In this document: positions 3,405 through 31,185 of the stretch, one piece after another
How positions within the stretch are numbered: the stretch's first letter is position 1
How the letters are laid out: every line of letters begins with the position of its first letter
DNA from: a virus
IMG/VR virus record: IMGVR_UViG_3300021959_007110
Location: 1-57,071 of that record
Strand: one strand, 5' to 3'
Length of the DNA: 57,071 nucleotides
The notes under the pieces: model-generated
Told to the model about the DNA's origin: nothing
Databases searched by the model: none
What the model saw: only the letters and a program-made list of their open reading frames with translations
Made by a program: the position numbers and the translations under genes

Positions 3405-5297
3405 CTATTTAAAGTTATATTGTAAATCTTCCATTGCTCCGAAGTTAGGGTCATTTAAAAACCATCTTGCATATGCGTGGTCTACTGTTGGTTTTGGTGG
3501 GTAAAAATTTGCTAAATCTATATTTTCTTCTTTTCCGTAGTCGTTAAAATCTGGTACAAAACTTATAAGTGCTAATAACCTACGTTGAATATCCATTTGT
3601 TGTTCTAAAGTCACAGCTGCTTCTAATTCTTTTACAGTCTCTATTGCTTTCATAGCTATTAGAAGTCTCATCTTCTCTCTTTTTGAATCCACAGGATTAA
3701 CTTTAGGCATTGCTTTACCAGGAATATTCTCCACATAGTCGGGTTTAGAATTCTCAAGTGCTGCTAGTTCTTTTTCAATATTATCTTCTTGATTGGCGCC
3801 GCCTTGCCTAGCATCAAGCGGTCCTCCTCCAGACGCTTCTTCAGATGAATTTTCTAAAGCGGCTATCTCAGAGTCAATGTCGTCTTCCATAGTAGCCTCA
3901 CCATCTAATGATTCAAGTTCTGCTATCTCAACTTCAATGCTATCATCTATGGTTTGAAATCCTGTTTTTTGTTGTACTTCTTCGGTAGGAGCTTCTACAA
4001 CATCATTAGAAAAAGTGGGGCTTGTAGCAGTGATCTCAGGCTGATAAAAATCAGGCTGACCAGTAGCTAAATCTGTATCAATAGAAAGAACATCTTCAAC
4101 TACAGGGTCTAAGACTGCAAAATTATTATCATTACCCGATAAATCGACGTAACCTGGGCACGTTTGACTGTACTGAGCATCTAAACTACATTGTTCATCA
4201 AAATATGCAATATCGTACCCAGTACATCCTCTGTCAAAAAGAGGATTCTCTTCACATTTTGCAACGTAGTAGTCGGGACAAGCAGGATCCGAAGTTGGAT
4301 TATTTGTACAAGTATTATTGAATAAAGCTAGTGAGTAACCATTACACTGAGAGTCGTAGAGAGGATTCAGACTGCATTGCTGATTTAAATATGCAGTAGC
4401 GTAACCTGGACATTGACTATCATATAGAGGATTTAGCTTACATTGCTGGTTATAGTAAGCAGCTGAATAACCTGGGCATGTTGGGTCAATTAAAGGGTTA
4501 GCCGCACACTGCATAGATAACCATGCCGCCTGATATCCGGGACATCCTGGATCATATAATGGGCTTGCTACACATTGCTGATTGTATAGAGCTTGTGCAT
4601 AGCCAGGACAGGCGGGATCATATGTTTGATTATTATAGCAAGGATCAGCTGAATAATTTACATATAGTCCAGATTCATCAGCTCTAAACTCAGGACCCCA
4701 ATAACCAGCCTGGTTTGCAATGTCTTGTGCAGTTACTTCTACAACAACATTACCAAAGTAAGTAGGGTCTAATCCTATAGCGCCAAAAAGCTCTGTACCT
4801 GTTTTGGTTGTCCAGTTATAAAACTGATTGCCATAATCATATTTGTAACTTTTATATAGGTTACTGTTAGAGTCATAGACATTAACAACAATCTCAAAAG
4901 GATCTACTGCGCCACCACCTGTCTGACCAGAAAAAGTATTCGCATTACCGTTTTTAAACACCCACTCATAGTCGAATCCATCAATTTGAATACCTACTGC
5001 TTGTAAAGCTGTATTTAGTGCAATAGTGTTAGTGAGAGTTTGTTGTGTGCCACTCCAATAATATGTAGTACCGTTGCCCGTATTCTGTGCTTCGTGAATA
5101 TCACCAGTATCAGTACTTCCAGCCCAACAGTCTACATAGTGTGTACATGGACTTATAGTGCCTGTCCATCCATTTCCTAATACAATGATATCACCGGTTT
5201 GACCCCTAGTTGTTGCTTGTTGTGCGTTAGAGTAAGAGGAGCAACAGACCAAGACTAATGCCGCCAGCAGCGATTGCACCATTCCTTTTTTGAACAT
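3405..5297 (-). CDS. Secreted Cys-repeat (CPGY) protein, 630 aa
   Basis: Residues 1-25 form a Sec signal peptide (hydrophobic core then SNA-QQ). Residues 30-215 form a beta-rich domain with WTGT, YYWSG and FEWVF-like strands. Residues 218-386 hold eight imperfect units of about 21 residues built on C..NPLYD..CPGY..AY..QQC, with two Cys per unit, suggesting disulphide-linked rigid rods. Residues 440-525 are acidic and hold three copies of a helix like DDIDSEIAALEN. The C-terminal 100 residues are helical. The start overlaps the upstream gene by 71 bases; an internal Met six codons in is an alternative. Likely exported or on the virion surface, perhaps a fibre or adhesin; no family assigned. 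Confidence 0.75.
   Translation of the reverse strand: MFKKGMVQSLLAALVLVCCSSYSNAQQATTRGQTGDIIVLGNGWTGTISPCTHYVDCWAGSTDTGDIHEAQNTGNGTTYYWSGTQQTLTNTIALNTALQAVGIQIDGFDYEWVFKNGNANTFSGQTGGGAVDPFEIVVNVYDSNSNLYKSYKYDYGNQFYNWTTKTGTELFGAIGLDPTYFGNVVVEVTAQDIANQAGYWGPEFRADESGLYVNYSADPCYNNQTYDPACPGYAQALYNQQCVASPLYDPGCPGYQAAWLSMQCAANPLIDPTCPGYSAAYYNQQCKLNPLYDSQCPGYATAYLNQQCSLNPLYDSQCNGYSLALFNNTCTNNPTSDPACPDYYVAKCEENPLFDRGCTGYDIAYFDEQCSLDAQYSQTCPGYVDLSGNDNNFAVLDPVVEDVLSIDTDLATGQPDFYQPEITATSPTFSNDVVEAPTEEVQQKTGFQTIDDSIEVEIAELESLDGEATMEDDIDSEIAALENSSEEASGGGPLDARQGGANQEDNIEKELAALENSKPDYVENIPGKAMPKVNPVDSKREKMRLLIAMKAIETVKELEAAVTLEQQMDIQRRLLALISFVPDFNDYGKEENIDLANFYPPKPTVDHAYARWFLNDPNFGAMEDLQYNFK
4140..4646 (-). 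repeat. Eight tandem CPGY protein-coding repeats
   Basis: Within the 630-residue secreted protein, eight consecutive units end in CPGY, CPGY, CPGY, CPGY, CNGY, CPDY, CTGY and CPGY. The first five are more alike than the last three, so the array seems to have grown by duplication and then decayed at its C-terminal end. Confidence 0.85.
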
Positions 5298-13159: not shown

Positions 13160-14119
13160 CTAAAGACCGTTTGGTACAATCACGTAATGGATAGCCAATA
13201 CTACCCCAACAGAAGCAGCAAGTCCGACCATCATTTTTAAAAAGTCTTTTCCTATTAGGGGGAATACAACTTTAAACTTTTCCTTGCCTGTCATAGTTGC
13301 CATAGCAAGTTCACGTCCACATAGTAATCCAACGAACACCCAAGTTGTTGACATAGGTATATCGTTAAGCTCTTTAAAGAAGAATAAGATAACCCAATAT
13401 ACGGCATCAATAATTGTAGCAGAACGAACATAACGAGTATTATGCTTCTCTAAAACAATATTTTGAATCTTACCTCCACCTTCTCTGAACATAAACCAAA
13501 GCCCGCCTACAAAGATAGCAGAAATTGCAAACATCATGTCAGCAGGAATTTGTCTTGGTAAAAACACCGCAATATTTGCGATATCATGAGATAACCAAGT
13601 CCACCATAAAAAGCCAGTAGTAACCCATTGTCCAATTCTCCACCAGCGTTTATGTTCTTCTTTAACTGGTCTAGATTCGTCTAAAATTTTAGTTACACAA
13701 ATCCAAATAACATAAGCAGCTACAGCAGCAACAGCATATCCCATCATAGATTTCATCAACATTTTTTCTAAAATAAAAGTAGAAGCAAAAGCTGAAAGTA
13801 CTAAAAATGATGTGCTTACAGGCACACCGATCCGCGTTAGTAAAAGTAGAAGTCCAGGGGCTAACGCGTGATACCACTGAATTTCTTGAAAGGGTATTTT
13901 ATTCAGTCTTCCATAGGAGATGTCTCCCCCATAAGTAAACCATCCGTACCATAATGCCCATAACAAAACAGACGAAGCAGCAAGCCACATCGTCCTCCAA
14001 TGAAATCGTTCGTTGTTAGAAGCAATCCAAGTACCGAGAGTTTGTACTGAATCATTTGCTATAACTGAATACGCAGCAAATAAAAAACCAACACCCATCC
14101 AAAGAGTTAAAAGTTCCAT
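13160..14119 (-). CDS. PiT (PHO4) family inorganic phosphate permease
   Basis: A 319-residue polytopic membrane protein with the duplicated signatures of the family: AAYSVIANDSVQTLGTW (ANDS..T.G) near residue 16, TRIGVPVSTSFLVLSAF (GVPVST) near 96, SHDIANIAVFLP (the second SHD.AN repeat) near 178, and IPMSTTWVFVGLLCGREL near 253. It would import phosphate with H+ or Na+, raising supply for viral DNA synthesis in P-poor water. It has its own promoter-like -10 box, leader hairpin and terminator, so it is a single-gene unit. Shorter than bacterial PitA (about 500) because the large central loop is absent. Substrate other than phosphate, such as sulfate, is possible. Confidence 0.78.
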   Translation of the reverse strand: MELLTLWMGVGFLFAAYSVIANDSVQTLGTWIASNNERFHWRTMWLAASSVLLWALWYGWFTYGGDISYGRLNKIPFQEIQWYHALAPGLLLLLTRIGVPVSTSFLVLSAFASTFILEKMLMKSMMGYAVAAVAAYVIWICVTKILDESRPVKEEHKRWWRIGQWVTTGFLWWTWLSHDIANIAVFLPRQIPADMMFAISAIFVGGLWFMFREGGGKIQNIVLEKHNTRYVRSATIIDAVYWVILFFFKELNDIPMSTTWVFVGLLCGRELAMATMTGKEKFKVVFPLIGKDFLKMMVGLAASVGVVLAIHYVIVPNGL

Positions 14120-14219: not shown

Positions 14220-14304
14220 TGGCTGTGGAGGATGGAGTCGAACCATCACGCCTTTCGGCACACGAGAAACAGTCGTGCGTGTCTACCAGTTTCACCACCC
14301 CACA
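14220..14304 (-). tRNA. tRNA with GUU anticodon (Asn) on a class II, Leu-like body
   Basis: An 85-nucleotide cloverleaf including encoded CCA. Acceptor UGUGGGG/CUCCACA (one G-U), discriminator G73. D-arm GUG...CAC with loop AAACUGGUAGA, as in bacterial tRNA-Leu. Anticodon stem CACGA/UCGUG with loop CUGUUUC gives anticodon GUU. Variable arm of 13 nt forms UGCC-GAAA-GGCG. T-arm GAUGG-UUCGACU-CCAUC is normal. U1-A72, G73 and GUU agree with bacterial Asn identity, but Asn tRNAs have a short variable loop and A37; here a long arm and U37 are present. It follows the synthetase-like gene by five bases on the same strand, so they form one operon. Confidence 0.85.
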
Positions 14305-14309
14305 ATAAA

Positions 14310-15140
14310 TTATGCTGCGAGTTGAAGCTGGGTATCTAGCGCCGCTATCATACGGGTCATACCGATACCCCCACCTACGCGAGGGAAAAAGTCAAACTTT
14401 AAAAATTCCTCAAGTTCAGCCTCTACACGTTCTTTGCCAAACAGTTCAAAGAGTAGATTTGCGTAGGCTCCCTCAGTGATAGTATGAAAAGTGTCACGCA
14501 TCATCTCAACGTCACAAGAACGTTCAGCTGAACCAATAGTTTCCATGCCGCCAAGAATTACATCAATTTTTTTAGAGTGAATTCCATCTTCATAACGGCT
14601 CATGTTCCAGAACGGAGAAGTAAACTCAGGGAAGTCAGTAATCATAGCAGTACTAAAATCATTAAACATTGCGGTTTCATGCACTGCTTCAAGTTCTCCA
14701 TCAACCTTATAGTGCTTTTGCCATGCCTCATAGGTCTTCTCAATCGGTCGATCAAAGCCAAGATAATCTACAAGTTCATATTCCATCTTTTTAAGGTCTA
14801 CAATGTCACCGGGCATTTCAAATTCAAACATTGGGAAGATAATATCATGCCTACCAGGAATAGCGTTAGGTTCTTGTCTGTATGAAGTTGAGACACAAAA
14901 AAAGCCCTTTTCATTGGGCTGAGAGAGTAATTCATGTTCTAACCACATCTGACCAGTTTGTGGAAGAGGCCAAACTTGACCAGCATAGTTATAAGTAGCA
15001 ACGTTAAACGGATCTTCGCAAGCTGCAAGGATAGAAAGACGATTCTGTGTGTGAACTTCTTTAAAACCTTTATCTAAAAAAAATGACCTTAAAAGGCCAA
15101 CAGTGTGAGTAAATTTTGTAGGAGAGATTAGTTGAGTCAT
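14310..15140 (-). CDS. Class II aminoacyl-tRNA synthetase-like protein (Asx/Lys type catalytic domain only)
   Basis: A 276-residue protein starting MTQLISPTKF (AAAGG before the ATG). Motif 1 region GFKEVHTQ (25-32), substrate loop WPLPQTGQMWLEHELL (57-72, compare LPQSPQ..KQ.L in AspRS/AsnRS), motif 2 SYRQEPNAIPGRHDIIF (86-102; ATP-binding Arg88), ILGGMETIGSAERSCD (195-210, like the G.E..GG..R strand), motif 3 GGGIGMTR (256-263; Arg263). This is a complete subclass IIb core, with no N-terminal OB-fold anticodon-binding domain. It should activate an amino acid with ATP; AsnA-type asparagine synthesis is the alternative. The adjacent tRNA with GUU anticodon and G73 strongly suggests that tRNA is the acceptor. 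Confidence 0.75.
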   Translation of the reverse strand: MTQLISPTKFTHTVGLLRSFFLDKGFKEVHTQNRLSILAACEDPFNVATYNYAGQVWPLPQTGQMWLEHELLSQPNEKGFFCVSTSYRQEPNAIPGRHDIIFPMFEFEMPGDIVDLKKMEYELVDYLGFDRPIEKTYEAWQKHYKVDGELEAVHETAMFNDFSTAMITDFPEFTSPFWNMSRYEDGIHSKKIDVILGGMETIGSAERSCDVEMMRDTFHTITEGAYANLLFELFGKERVEAELEEFLKFDFFPRVGGGIGMTRMIAALDTQLQLAA

Positions 15141-16527: not shown

Positions 16528-16685
16528 GCAGAGGCAACATTAGTTGGAGTAAAAAAAGTAGAAGGAACTTCTTCAGATATAGTACCACAATCGCAAATAT
16601 CACAACCACAAGCACCATTCTCGCAAGAATCCCACTTACAATGACAGCTGCATCCACATTTATTGCAATTCTTAGTTTCGGTCAT
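16524..16685 (-). CDS. Cys-rich metallothionein-like protein, 53 aa
   Basis: Fifty-three residues. Ten Cys fall within residues 7-33 in CxxC, CxC and CxCxC groups: CNKCGCSCHCKWDSC, then ACGCDICDCG. This density and spacing are typical of metallothioneins that hold Zn, Cd or Cu clusters. The remaining 20 residues are polar. Start and stop overlap both neighbours (ATGA), so it is translated with the oxygenase-like gene before it and the DUF6065-like gene after it. Metal buffering or delivery is inferred. A structural zinc cluster protein is the alternative. Confidence 0.65.
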   Translation of the reverse strand: MTETKNCNKCGCSCHCKWDSCENGACGCDICDCGTISEEVPSTFFTPTNVASA

Positions 16686-17770
16686 GCAGCTAAACTTTCG
16701 GGTAAATGGGCTAGTGGATTAGAAGGGTTGACACCTAAAAACTTACCCCACTCTGCATAGTAGTGGCGCATTCCAACTTCATCATGAATTGTAGAATTTT
16801 CATGGCGTCCGTGTAGGATGTTTCTCGATTCGGTACCTTCTCTCATGGTAGTACCTTGACCAGCAACACCAATTAAGTCTTCATGTAAATTGCGACCGAA
16901 TGGTCCCCAGATAGAATTGTGGTGTTTGATTCTTGTTTGTCTTTCTTCTGGAGTATCGCACCTAAGCCCATAACCACGAAACTCTATAAGAACTTTGTTG
17001 GGTCCGAGAGGTGTTACTGAGTCTGAACGATAGGCGGAACCCCGTAGGTTGAAATTAAACCCTGGGAAGAGGTCGACCATGTACCACTGGTTGGGCGGCA
17101 GATTGGGAAAAGATAACTCCCCTCTATCCTCAAAGCCGTCATACTCAGTATAGTTAACAGTAAAGCTAGACACGTTAACATGACCATTATCAAAAGGAAT
17201 ATTTTTTCTAGCAAAGTATTCATCGTTAAATCCTGACACACGATTAAAGTAGTGCATAAAGTCATGATAAAATTCTGAATTAGTATCATGCCATAGCTTG
17301 TAGTTTGTATCAATTACTGCCTTGTGGTAATGAAACACTTCCATTTCTTCAGTATCAATTGCATCAGCAATACAATCAAATGCTCCAGCAGTCCATTCAT
17401 CCACACTCTGTGTAGGGTTAGGATCAAGTGTGACCCAGACCATTCCACCATGTTTTACTTCGCAGTGTAGTTGTGGTTCAACGGTTACAATCGGTGCAGC
17501 TACTGTACCAGAAGGGTAATTGAACCCATGATTACGGTACGCCTTAATACCATCTTTAGTATTTACTGCAATTACGTTCTGCCCAGCAATTTGTGTTGTT
17601 CTATAGTTACCTTCATTATACATTTCTGAGATATGGCACATAGGAATCCAAACCTTTGAAAAGATTTGTTCTTGTTCTGCTTTATATACTTCATAACTAT
17701 TATAACAATCACTGTTAATATATTCGACTTTTGGTGAACTAATCCAGTTTTTATGGTTTCTTGGTGCCAT
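16682..17770 (-). CDS. Rieske-type oxygenase alpha-subunit homologue lacking the Rieske cluster
   Basis: A 362-residue protein. Its N-terminal half follows ring-hydroxylating oxygenases (IFSKVWIPMCHISEM, YRTTQIAGQNVIAVNTKDGI.AYRN). Where CxHRG...CPYHGW should be, it reads NHGFNYPSGTVAAP, then HCEVKHGGMVWVTLD, so the two Cys and His cluster ligands are gone. The C-terminal mononuclear-iron domain is kept: NYKLWHDTNSEFYHDFMHYF (H169, H173) and HEDLIGVAGQG (D298). It may work with another electron source or have a new role. It overlaps the o-spanin gene by 20 bases and the metallothionein-like gene by four. Confidence 0.72.
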   Translation of the reverse strand: MAPRNHKNWISSPKVEYINSDCYNSYEVYKAEQEQIFSKVWIPMCHISEMYNEGNYRTTQIAGQNVIAVNTKDGIKAYRNHGFNYPSGTVAAPIVTVEPQLHCEVKHGGMVWVTLDPNPTQSVDEWTAGAFDCIADAIDTEEMEVFHYHKAVIDTNYKLWHDTNSEFYHDFMHYFNRVSGFNDEYFARKNIPFDNGHVNVSSFTVNYTEYDGFEDRGELSFPNLPPNQWYMVDLFPGFNFNLRGSAYRSDSVTPLGPNKVLIEFRGYGLRCDTPEERQTRIKHHNSIWGPFGRNLHEDLIGVAGQGTTMREGTESRNILHGRHENSTIHDEVGMRHYYAEWGKFLGVNPSNPLAHLPESLAA

Positions 17771-30461: not shown

Positions 30462-30807
30462 CCATTGTGTTGATCTTGTCGTTGATATATTATTAATTAT
30501 ATGGGAAGTTATCAGTAGTCCAATACTTATAGCTATGCGTCTTATAAGACACTTTGTAGGTGAGTGGTTTACTGAAAAAATTAAAGCATGTGTGCGTTGG
30601 ATAGTACATTGGTTTGCTCATAAACGTGCAGTTAGACTTGAAAAGGGACATGGAATATTCCGTACCTATTGGTACCTAATACTGCCGAGTCCTTTTATTA
30701 TTATCGCAATTTGGATGATTACAATGGTCAGCATTGGTATAGGGCAAGGTTATAATGAACTTAAAACAACTAAACCAGACAGCACATTGTTACAAATTTT
30801 TGAATAG
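30421..30807 (+). CDS. Membrane protein, 128 aa
   Basis: Begins MKLLQKIKKWITIDHCVDLV and has a hydrophobic stretch at residues 17-42, a Trp/Arg/His-rich amphipathic middle (CVRWIVHWFAHKRAVRLEKG), and a second membrane segment at 86-111 (YLILPSPFIIIAIWMITMVS). The stop TAG at 30805-30807 borders directly on the tmRNA acceptor piece. Possibly a receptor-blocking or holin-like protein; no family. Confidence 0.6.
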   Translation: MKLLQKIKKWITIDHCVDLVVDILLIIWEVISSPILIAMRLIRHFVGEWFTEKIKACVRWIVHWFAHKRAVRLEKGHGIFRTYWYLILPSPFIIIAIWMITMVSIGIGQGYNELKTTKPDSTLLQIFE

Positions 30808-31150
30808 AACTAGTGCTTCGTTTGAGGAGTAGTAAAATAGACGGGCTGGACTCGGGGGCAGTACCCGACGCCTCCACCATAAACACTTGGAGTAGAAAAT
30901 GGATGAAGTAGTAACTTATTTGCTATTGAGATTTGTACAATATGGATTAATAGCATTGTCAATTGGATCATTGCTTGAAGTGTTTATGATGGGGGCGAAC
31001 TAGGATCGACAGACGTAATAAAAACAATGCCGAGAAGCAGGTGCGCAAGCGACCTCAACCGCAAGAAAACAAACAATTGCAAATGATAATTTCGCAATCG
31101 AGGATTACCGCATAGCGGCATAATCTCACGGGGTATGGTTCCACCTAGCA
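30808..31150 (+). ncRNA. ssrA: Circularly permuted tmRNA (two-piece type)
   Basis: The 3' acceptor piece comes first (about 30808-30879): GACGGGCUGGACUCGGGGGC, T-stem UCGGG/CCCGA, CGCCUCC, A, CCA. The 5' piece starts at 30991: GGGGGCGAAC then GGAUCGAC, and GGGGGCG pairs with CGCCUCC (seven pairs, one G-U). Then AUGCCGAG and a PK1-like hairpin (AGGU...ACCU), and the tag ORF at 31079-31123: A-N-D-N-F-A-I-E-D-Y-R-I-A-A-stop. The 111-nt spacer is framed by TAAACACTT and AAGTGTTTA, which lengthen the acceptor stem in the precursor. Permuted genes of this kind are the norm in alphaproteobacteria. The outer ends of both pieces are estimates. Confidence 0.88.
30899..31003 (+). CDS. Small membrane protein encoded in the tmRNA spacer, 34 aa
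   Basis: ATG at 30899 with GGAG seven bases upstream. MDEVVTYLLLRFVQYGLIAL then SIGSLLEVFMMGAN: acidic start and one membrane helix. It lies in the 111-nt region removed when the tmRNA precursor is cut, and its last codons and stop (TAG 31001-31003) fall in the first 13 nt of the mature 5' piece. RNA processing would destroy this ORF, so it can only be made from unprocessed precursor. Could be a chance frame, but the ribosome binding site and composition argue for a gene. Confidence 0.45.
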   Translation: MDEVVTYLLLRFVQYGLIALSIGSLLEVFMMGAN

Positions 31151-31185
31151 ACAGAAAGGGCCTTTACAACTCTTATGAGGTTTTA

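Follow-up and report, generated by a model that had tools for sequence, protein, structure and literature searches.

A marine phage encodes, side by side, an enzyme built on the catalytic core of asparaginyl-tRNA synthetase (AsnRS) and an unusual tRNA with a GUU anticodon. The best overall explanation, which we favour with modest confidence, is that the enzyme is a former AsnRS core that would form dihydroorotate, and that in phages it is accompanied by a tRNA charged by the host and acting as a carrier of asparagine. The window, that is, the whole stretch of 57,071 nucleotides that was analysed, is a 57-kb IMG/VR record (IMGVR_UViG_3300021959_007110) and may be a fragment of a larger genome.

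The gene pair and its spread among viruses

The enzyme gene (positions 14,310 to 15,140, minus strand) encodes a class II AsnRS-like catalytic core of 276 amino acids, identified with PF00152, PHROG 29758 and an AlphaFold model. It is followed on the same strand by an 85-nt tRNA with an encoded CCA end and a Leu-type body (14,220 to 14,304), identified by ARAGORN, fold prediction and covariation. ORF and ARAGORN coordinates leave five bases between the stop codon and the tRNA, as an earlier note, made from the sequence alone, had reported. Directly after the tRNA lies a gene for a phosphate permease, PitA-like by eye (13,160 to 14,119, minus strand), whose family occurs in about 10 viral loci (for example L084); a similar permease is found in locus L116. 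On the other side of the pair, a protein resembling Rieske-type oxygenases by eye (16,682 to 17,770, minus strand), with no PHROG match, is present in 14 viral loci of the set. The window also carries a permuted tmRNA of alphaproteobacterial type (30,757 to 31,165, plus strand; Rfam RF01849, 121 bits), and tmRNAs are found in the related phage loci L035, directly past the partner tRNA, L046 and L078.

The pair is widespread and not the oddity of one phage. The enzyme is adjoined by a partner tRNA in about 110 of 164 viral loci, the pair is present in more than 100 IMG/VR loci, and in most of the 108 viral loci counted the tRNA starts no more than about 10 nt past the enzyme stop codon; the linkage is thus real, and the genes were not found scattered in related phages, the outcome that the earlier note had named as contrary to its reading. 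Around one third of the sampled viral loci have no adjacent tRNA, some of these being contig ends. The pair also occurs in the Prochlorococcus phages P-SSM2, P-SSM5 and P-SSM7, whose enzymes are 64-66% identical to that of the window and are annotated as 'tRNA ligase' with a tRNA-Asn; they belong to the same family (PHROG 29758) and have the same tRNA, known by annotation only. In P-SSM7 the pair sits within a tRNA cluster. The P-SSM2 record (NC_006883.2, locus L002) places its annotated tRNA-Asn (PSSM2_199, 164,094 to 164,179) within another gene, whereas ARAGORN finds a tRNA directly after the enzyme (locus positions 4,813 to 4,900), so the record coordinates look shifted by about 2 kb. Just ahead of the enzyme gene of a huge (735-kb) phage lies a structured element (L004, 4,829 to 4,917) that contains the stretch UUGUUAG and a 7-bp outer stem, but it does not adopt a tRNA fold. 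The open-licence literature searched contained no account of the pair, of an aminoacyl-tRNA synthetase paralog in pyrimidine synthesis, or of such a paralog with its own dedicated tRNA in metabolism, in agreement with the earlier note, which knew of no described phage system of this kind.

An AsnRS-like catalytic core

The sole Pfam match of the protein is PF00152, the class II D/K/N synthetase core (E 5.8e-15), and PHROG 29758, a family of unknown function, matches residues 1-269 with 427.8 bits (E 2.8e-128). The AlphaFold (AF2) model has a pLDDT of 94.9 and its best PDB matches are the catalytic domains of AsnRS and AspRS (TM about 0.7, identity 18-19%). Both the model and the alignment indicate that the chain begins at the class II core and that the N-terminal OB anticodon-binding domain is absent. 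An AsnRS-like core stripped of its anticodon domain, as initially proposed, is therefore upheld by the Pfam match, the model and the alignment together. The enzyme does not reach the AsnRS model TIGR00457 (18.3 bits against a cut-off of 342.6).

Alignment to AsnRS, AspRS and LysRS reveals an AsnRS-type pocket with ACE, SGQxxE and GSxR signatures. The segment RLSILAACEDP (residues 34-44; 15,009 to 15,041, minus strand, as are all the motifs given here) contains an ACE that aligns with the ACEG of AsnRS, the Glu of which we take to be the binder of the alpha-amino group; I37, A40, C41 and P44 are near-invariant across 151 proteins of the family. The remaining motifs contain residues that are invariant in the same 151 proteins. 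TGQMWLE (residues 62-68; 14,937 to 14,957; T62, Q64 and E68) is of the AsnRS type, SGQLxxE, and has no AspRS lysine. It is followed by the class II motif 2 region, placed by alignment (residues 86-108; 14,817 to 14,885; S86, R88, E90 and H98), by ETIGSAER (residues 200-207; 14,520 to 14,543; E200, T201, G203 and R207), the counterpart of AsnRS EIIGGSxR, and by class II motif 3, also placed by alignment, GGGIGMTR (residues 256-263; 14,352 to 14,375; G260 and R263), in which Thr takes the place of the acidic residue preceding the Arg. Thus, the enzyme resembles AsnRS (class IIb) in fold and in its Asn- and ATP-site signatures, but AsnRS has the anticodon domain and the motif-3 acid, and the phage-type family is linked to pyr genes. 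The enzyme probably descends from the catalytic core of an AsnRS and acts outside protein synthesis.

Metabolic recruits of this kind are already known, namely AsnA and HisZ (PMC9437257). AsnA and the archaeal AS-AR are likewise class II cores lacking a tRNA-binding domain (PMC9437257), and it could be supposed that the phage protein is an asparagine synthetase making Asn from Asp, ammonia and ATP. We consider this highly improbable. There is no match to the AsnA Pfam family, asparagine synthetase A models score 15-22 bits against cut-offs of 309-389 (PRK06462, 21.4 against 389), the pocket is of the Asn type without the AspRS lysine, and the loss of PyrB described below would be left unexplained. 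By score the two are separate families, and the pyrimidine context and the phage partner tRNA are found on the side of the present enzyme; the grouping with AsnA that the earlier note had named as contrary to its reading does not hold.

The partner tRNA

Fold prediction gives the window tRNA a complete cloverleaf, with the anticodon G34-U35-U36 at 14,268 to 14,270, U37 at 14,267 and a 13-nt variable arm, GCC-GAAA-GGC, at 14,248 to 14,260 (all minus strand). Together with U1-A72, G73 and the Leu-type D arm, every element of the earlier description of this molecule was confirmed. Among 28 diverse phage copies, all 556 of 556 helix cells are paired, with 141 compensatory changes, a level of covariation matched by none of 500 shuffles, so chance is excluded.

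The molecule matches neither of the classes that it resembles in every feature. It has the GUU, G73 and U1-A72 of an elongator tRNA-Asn but U37 in place of a purine and a 13-nt arm in place of a short variable loop, and its GUU and G73 differ from the Leu anticodon and A73 of tRNA-Leu. With Rfam covariance models it stays below the gathering score of every tRNA family. ARAGORN gives wrong names to those partner tRNAs whose arms are about 28 nt long, and the covariance model R1, applied in the search for such tRNAs in cellular carriers, matches mostly ordinary tRNA-Leu.

Comparison of 75 distinct partner tRNAs (76 parsed rows, less the parser false positive L134) shows which positions are constrained. 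G34, U35 and G73 are constant in all 75, and U36 in 74, the exception being L118, with anticodon GUC. U1-A72 is found in about 72, with A1-U72 in three. A pyrimidine at position 37 occurs in about 63 of the 75 as against one of 87 other tRNAs from the same loci, and about four have a base other than U at position 33. The length of the variable region is not conserved, ranging from 5 to 40 nt among related partner tRNAs with a few nearly devoid of an arm, which speaks against recognition through the long arm, as had been suggested. In L118 the GUC (Asp) tRNA has a 39-nt variable region and lies a few nucleotides past the enzyme; charging by AspRS would still fit it.

G34-U35-U36, G73 and U1-A72 are identity bases for the charging of Asn and Asp tRNAs. 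U1-A72 is in addition the pair recognised by GatCAB (PMC4206432). The retention of these bases along with a pyrimidine at 37 suggests a tRNA that is charged but not selected for decoding, and since the anticodon is conserved while the phage enzyme has no anticodon domain, a host enzyme would be the charger.

These features bear on the idea that the two genes form an orthogonal translation pair, in which the tRNA would receive Asn from the phage enzyme, which would read its acceptor stem and G73, and would then translate the AAY codons of phage genes, insulating Asn decoding from loss of host tRNA. The tight gene linkage, the AsnRS-like pocket, the GUU anticodon in 74 of 75 tRNAs and the tRNA cluster of P-SSM7 agree with it. 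We nevertheless regard it as unlikely, because a pyrimidine at 37 is usual (86 of the 87 control tRNAs have a purine), a few copies have no U33, the conserved anticodon is matched by no domain of the enzyme that could read it, and cellular members of the enzyme family with the same invariant residues probably replace PyrB. Recoding of AAY codons, also proposed earlier, is rejected by the genes themselves, as all 108 tRNA-linked loci checked use AAT or AAC to encode Asn179, an invariant residue of the enzyme.

Cellular homologs and pyrimidine genes

A genome scan revealed homologs encoded in 129 stretches, from Patescibacteria, DPANN archaea, Dependentiae, Chlamydiae, Bacteroidota, Pasteurella atlantica and others. 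Among 118 ORFs adjoining the cellular homologs are 13 for OMP decarboxylase, 11 for phosphoribosyltransferases (PRTases) and six for DHODH, a genomic linkage to pyrD, pyrE and pyrF. PyrB (aspartate transcarbamoylase) exceeds its cut-off in two of 50 carrier genomes as against 14 of 14 controls. In about 25 of these 50 carriers PyrD is strong and full-length. Many carrier genomes are reduced or incomplete, which confounds gene absence everywhere except in the order-level test. That test comprised 120 genomes of the order of Aureispira, seven of which have the enzyme gene: PyrB is missing in all seven carriers and in 11 of 113 non-carriers, the other 102 having it (p=5e-7). The 11 genomes with neither PyrB nor the enzyme (for example G076, G162 and G180) may use another route or salvage, or may be incomplete. 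The complete genome of Pasteurella atlantica has the gene order pyrD, enzyme, pyrF, PRTase, with CarB, PyrB and PyrC all below cut-off.

The enzyme therefore lies among pyr genes in genomes deprived of the usual first pyrimidine enzymes, and the pair probably serves a hitherto unrecognised route to pyrimidines and not protein synthesis. Judging from comparative genomics, a function of the enzyme in pyrimidine biosynthesis is very probable in cells and, with somewhat less assurance, probable in the window phage.

Several viral loci bring the elements together. Partner tRNA and pyrF are combined in L092-L095, L099 and L141, and PyrF and a small PRTase are close to the enzyme and tRNA in L092 and L141. 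In L028 and L036 a pyrD-like gene lies upstream of the series formed by enzyme, tRNA and small PRTase. L116, a viral locus without the tRNA, has a purB-like gene, the enzyme and pyrF with overlapping ends, and P-SSM7 carries a pyrE that scores above the curated cut-off. The small PRTase of L028 and L183 has no family match or only sub-cut-off ones, so 'orotate PRTase' would be an assignment by context. Inspection by eye suggests that the first 'PyrE' matches, in L015-L018, L067, L085 and L100, are adenine-type PRTases, and they were left out of the pyrimidine genes. The profiles used detected no pyr gene in the window itself, and once viral loci are dereplicated the association of pyr genes with the tRNA is weak (p ~0.08, a count still containing some adenine-type PRTase matches).

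In the phylogenetic tree, tRNA-linked enzymes occur in at least three lineages (L102/L112/L147, L118 and the marine clade), and the pyr-operon enzyme of Pasteurella, which has no tRNA, is nested with moderate support in the main marine tRNA-linked clade. All invariant residues are common to the tRNA-linked and pyr-linked proteins, the sole conserved column that separates them being V/I at residue 47; by sequence, the enzymes of phages and cells seem to be one and the same catalyst.

The special tRNA was searched for elsewhere in cellular carriers, and its pattern is absent save in two bins, which have it next to the enzyme gene and are probably phage contigs. Catalysis thus has no strict need of the tRNA. 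This, with the absence of the tRNA from many viral loci, agrees with a pyrimidine enzyme that takes free Asn (or Asp), the tRNA being regulatory or having a separate role, such as ordinary Asn supply for translation, the processing of mRNA 3' ends or drawing off anticodon nucleases as a decoy. We regard this reading as a minority possibility, as tRNAs of this unusual kind accompany distantly related enzyme lineages, a recurrence that would be difficult to account for unless the two act together.

Proposed reaction and role of the tRNA

For the enzyme, the reaction Asn + bicarbonate + ATP to dihydroorotate is plausible, at somewhat short of even confidence. The enzyme would adenylate L-asparagine; the adenylate would capture CO2 or bicarbonate, in the form of either an N-carboxyanhydride or a carbamoyl-adenylate; and the amide of the side chain would attack the carbamate carbon to close a six-membered ring with a free alpha-carboxylate, giving L-dihydroorotate, AMP and PPi. 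Threonylcarbamoyl-AMP synthase (TsaC/YrdC) makes a carbamoyl-adenylate, the precursor of t6A, from an amino acid, bicarbonate and ATP; its chemistry is like the one proposed, although its fold is unrelated to that of the enzyme. As asparagine plus CO2 minus water equals dihydroorotate, an Asn-adenylating enzyme that admits CO2 could close the ring, and aminoacyl adenylates are rapidly converted by CO2 into N-carboxyanhydrides (PMC9634692). The enzyme would thereby replace CarAB, PyrB and PyrC, with PyrD, PyrE and PyrF acting next. It is unrelated to the CarAB-PyrB-PyrC proteins, which are missing from nearly all genomes carrying it, and would hand PyrD the same dihydroorotate.

A less extensive replacement is conceivable, in which the product is N-carbamoyl-aspartate, only CarAB and PyrB are replaced and a PyrC-like hydrolase closes the ring. 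It could apply in the order of Aureispira, where six of the seven carriers retain a PyrC-like amidohydrolase, below cut-off. Among 12 diverse carriers, CarB and PyrC each exceed the cut-off in one, and PyrC has no match whatever in nine, which makes this product rather improbable.

In the preferred explanation, the formation of dihydroorotate in phages is joined to the tRNA. The host would load the phage tRNA by a non-discriminating AspRS with GatCAB, or by AsnRS, through recognition of G34-U35-U36, G73 and U1-A72. The tRNA-borne Asn would then be diverted by the phage enzyme from translation to pyrimidine synthesis. The tRNA may be the source of Asn where hosts make it solely on tRNA, or may keep the Asn of the phage apart from translation. 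Synthesis of Asn by ND-AspRS and GatCAB (PMC4206432) relies on identity bases, including U1-A72, that are present on the partner tRNA; in the phage, the charged tRNA would feed metabolism. Host charging and a carrier role are offered tentatively, and more tentatively still the complete tRNA-dependent pyrimidine route, in which a host-charged, non-decoding phage tRNA delivers Asn for one-step dihydroorotate formation, bypassing carbamoyl phosphate, PyrB and PyrC. Among the roles suggested in the earlier note, the supply of aminoacyl-tRNA for a non-ribosomal reaction is the best fit given the pyrimidine context, to which that note had no access, with the tRNA as its putative carrier.

Significance

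The textbook start of de novo pyrimidine synthesis is carbamoyl phosphate and aspartate. If the proposed reaction is true, pyrimidine synthesis would have a one-enzyme entry from asparagine, and the missing first steps would be filled in Patescibacteria, Dependentiae, Aureispira, Pasteurella atlantica and others that have the later pyr genes and no pyrB. Aminoacyl-tRNA synthetase paralogs would gain a central metabolic reaction, and a metabolic, non-decoding tRNA would join the few known non-ribosomal uses of tRNA. For marine phages, the pair would mean an independent supply of nucleotides.
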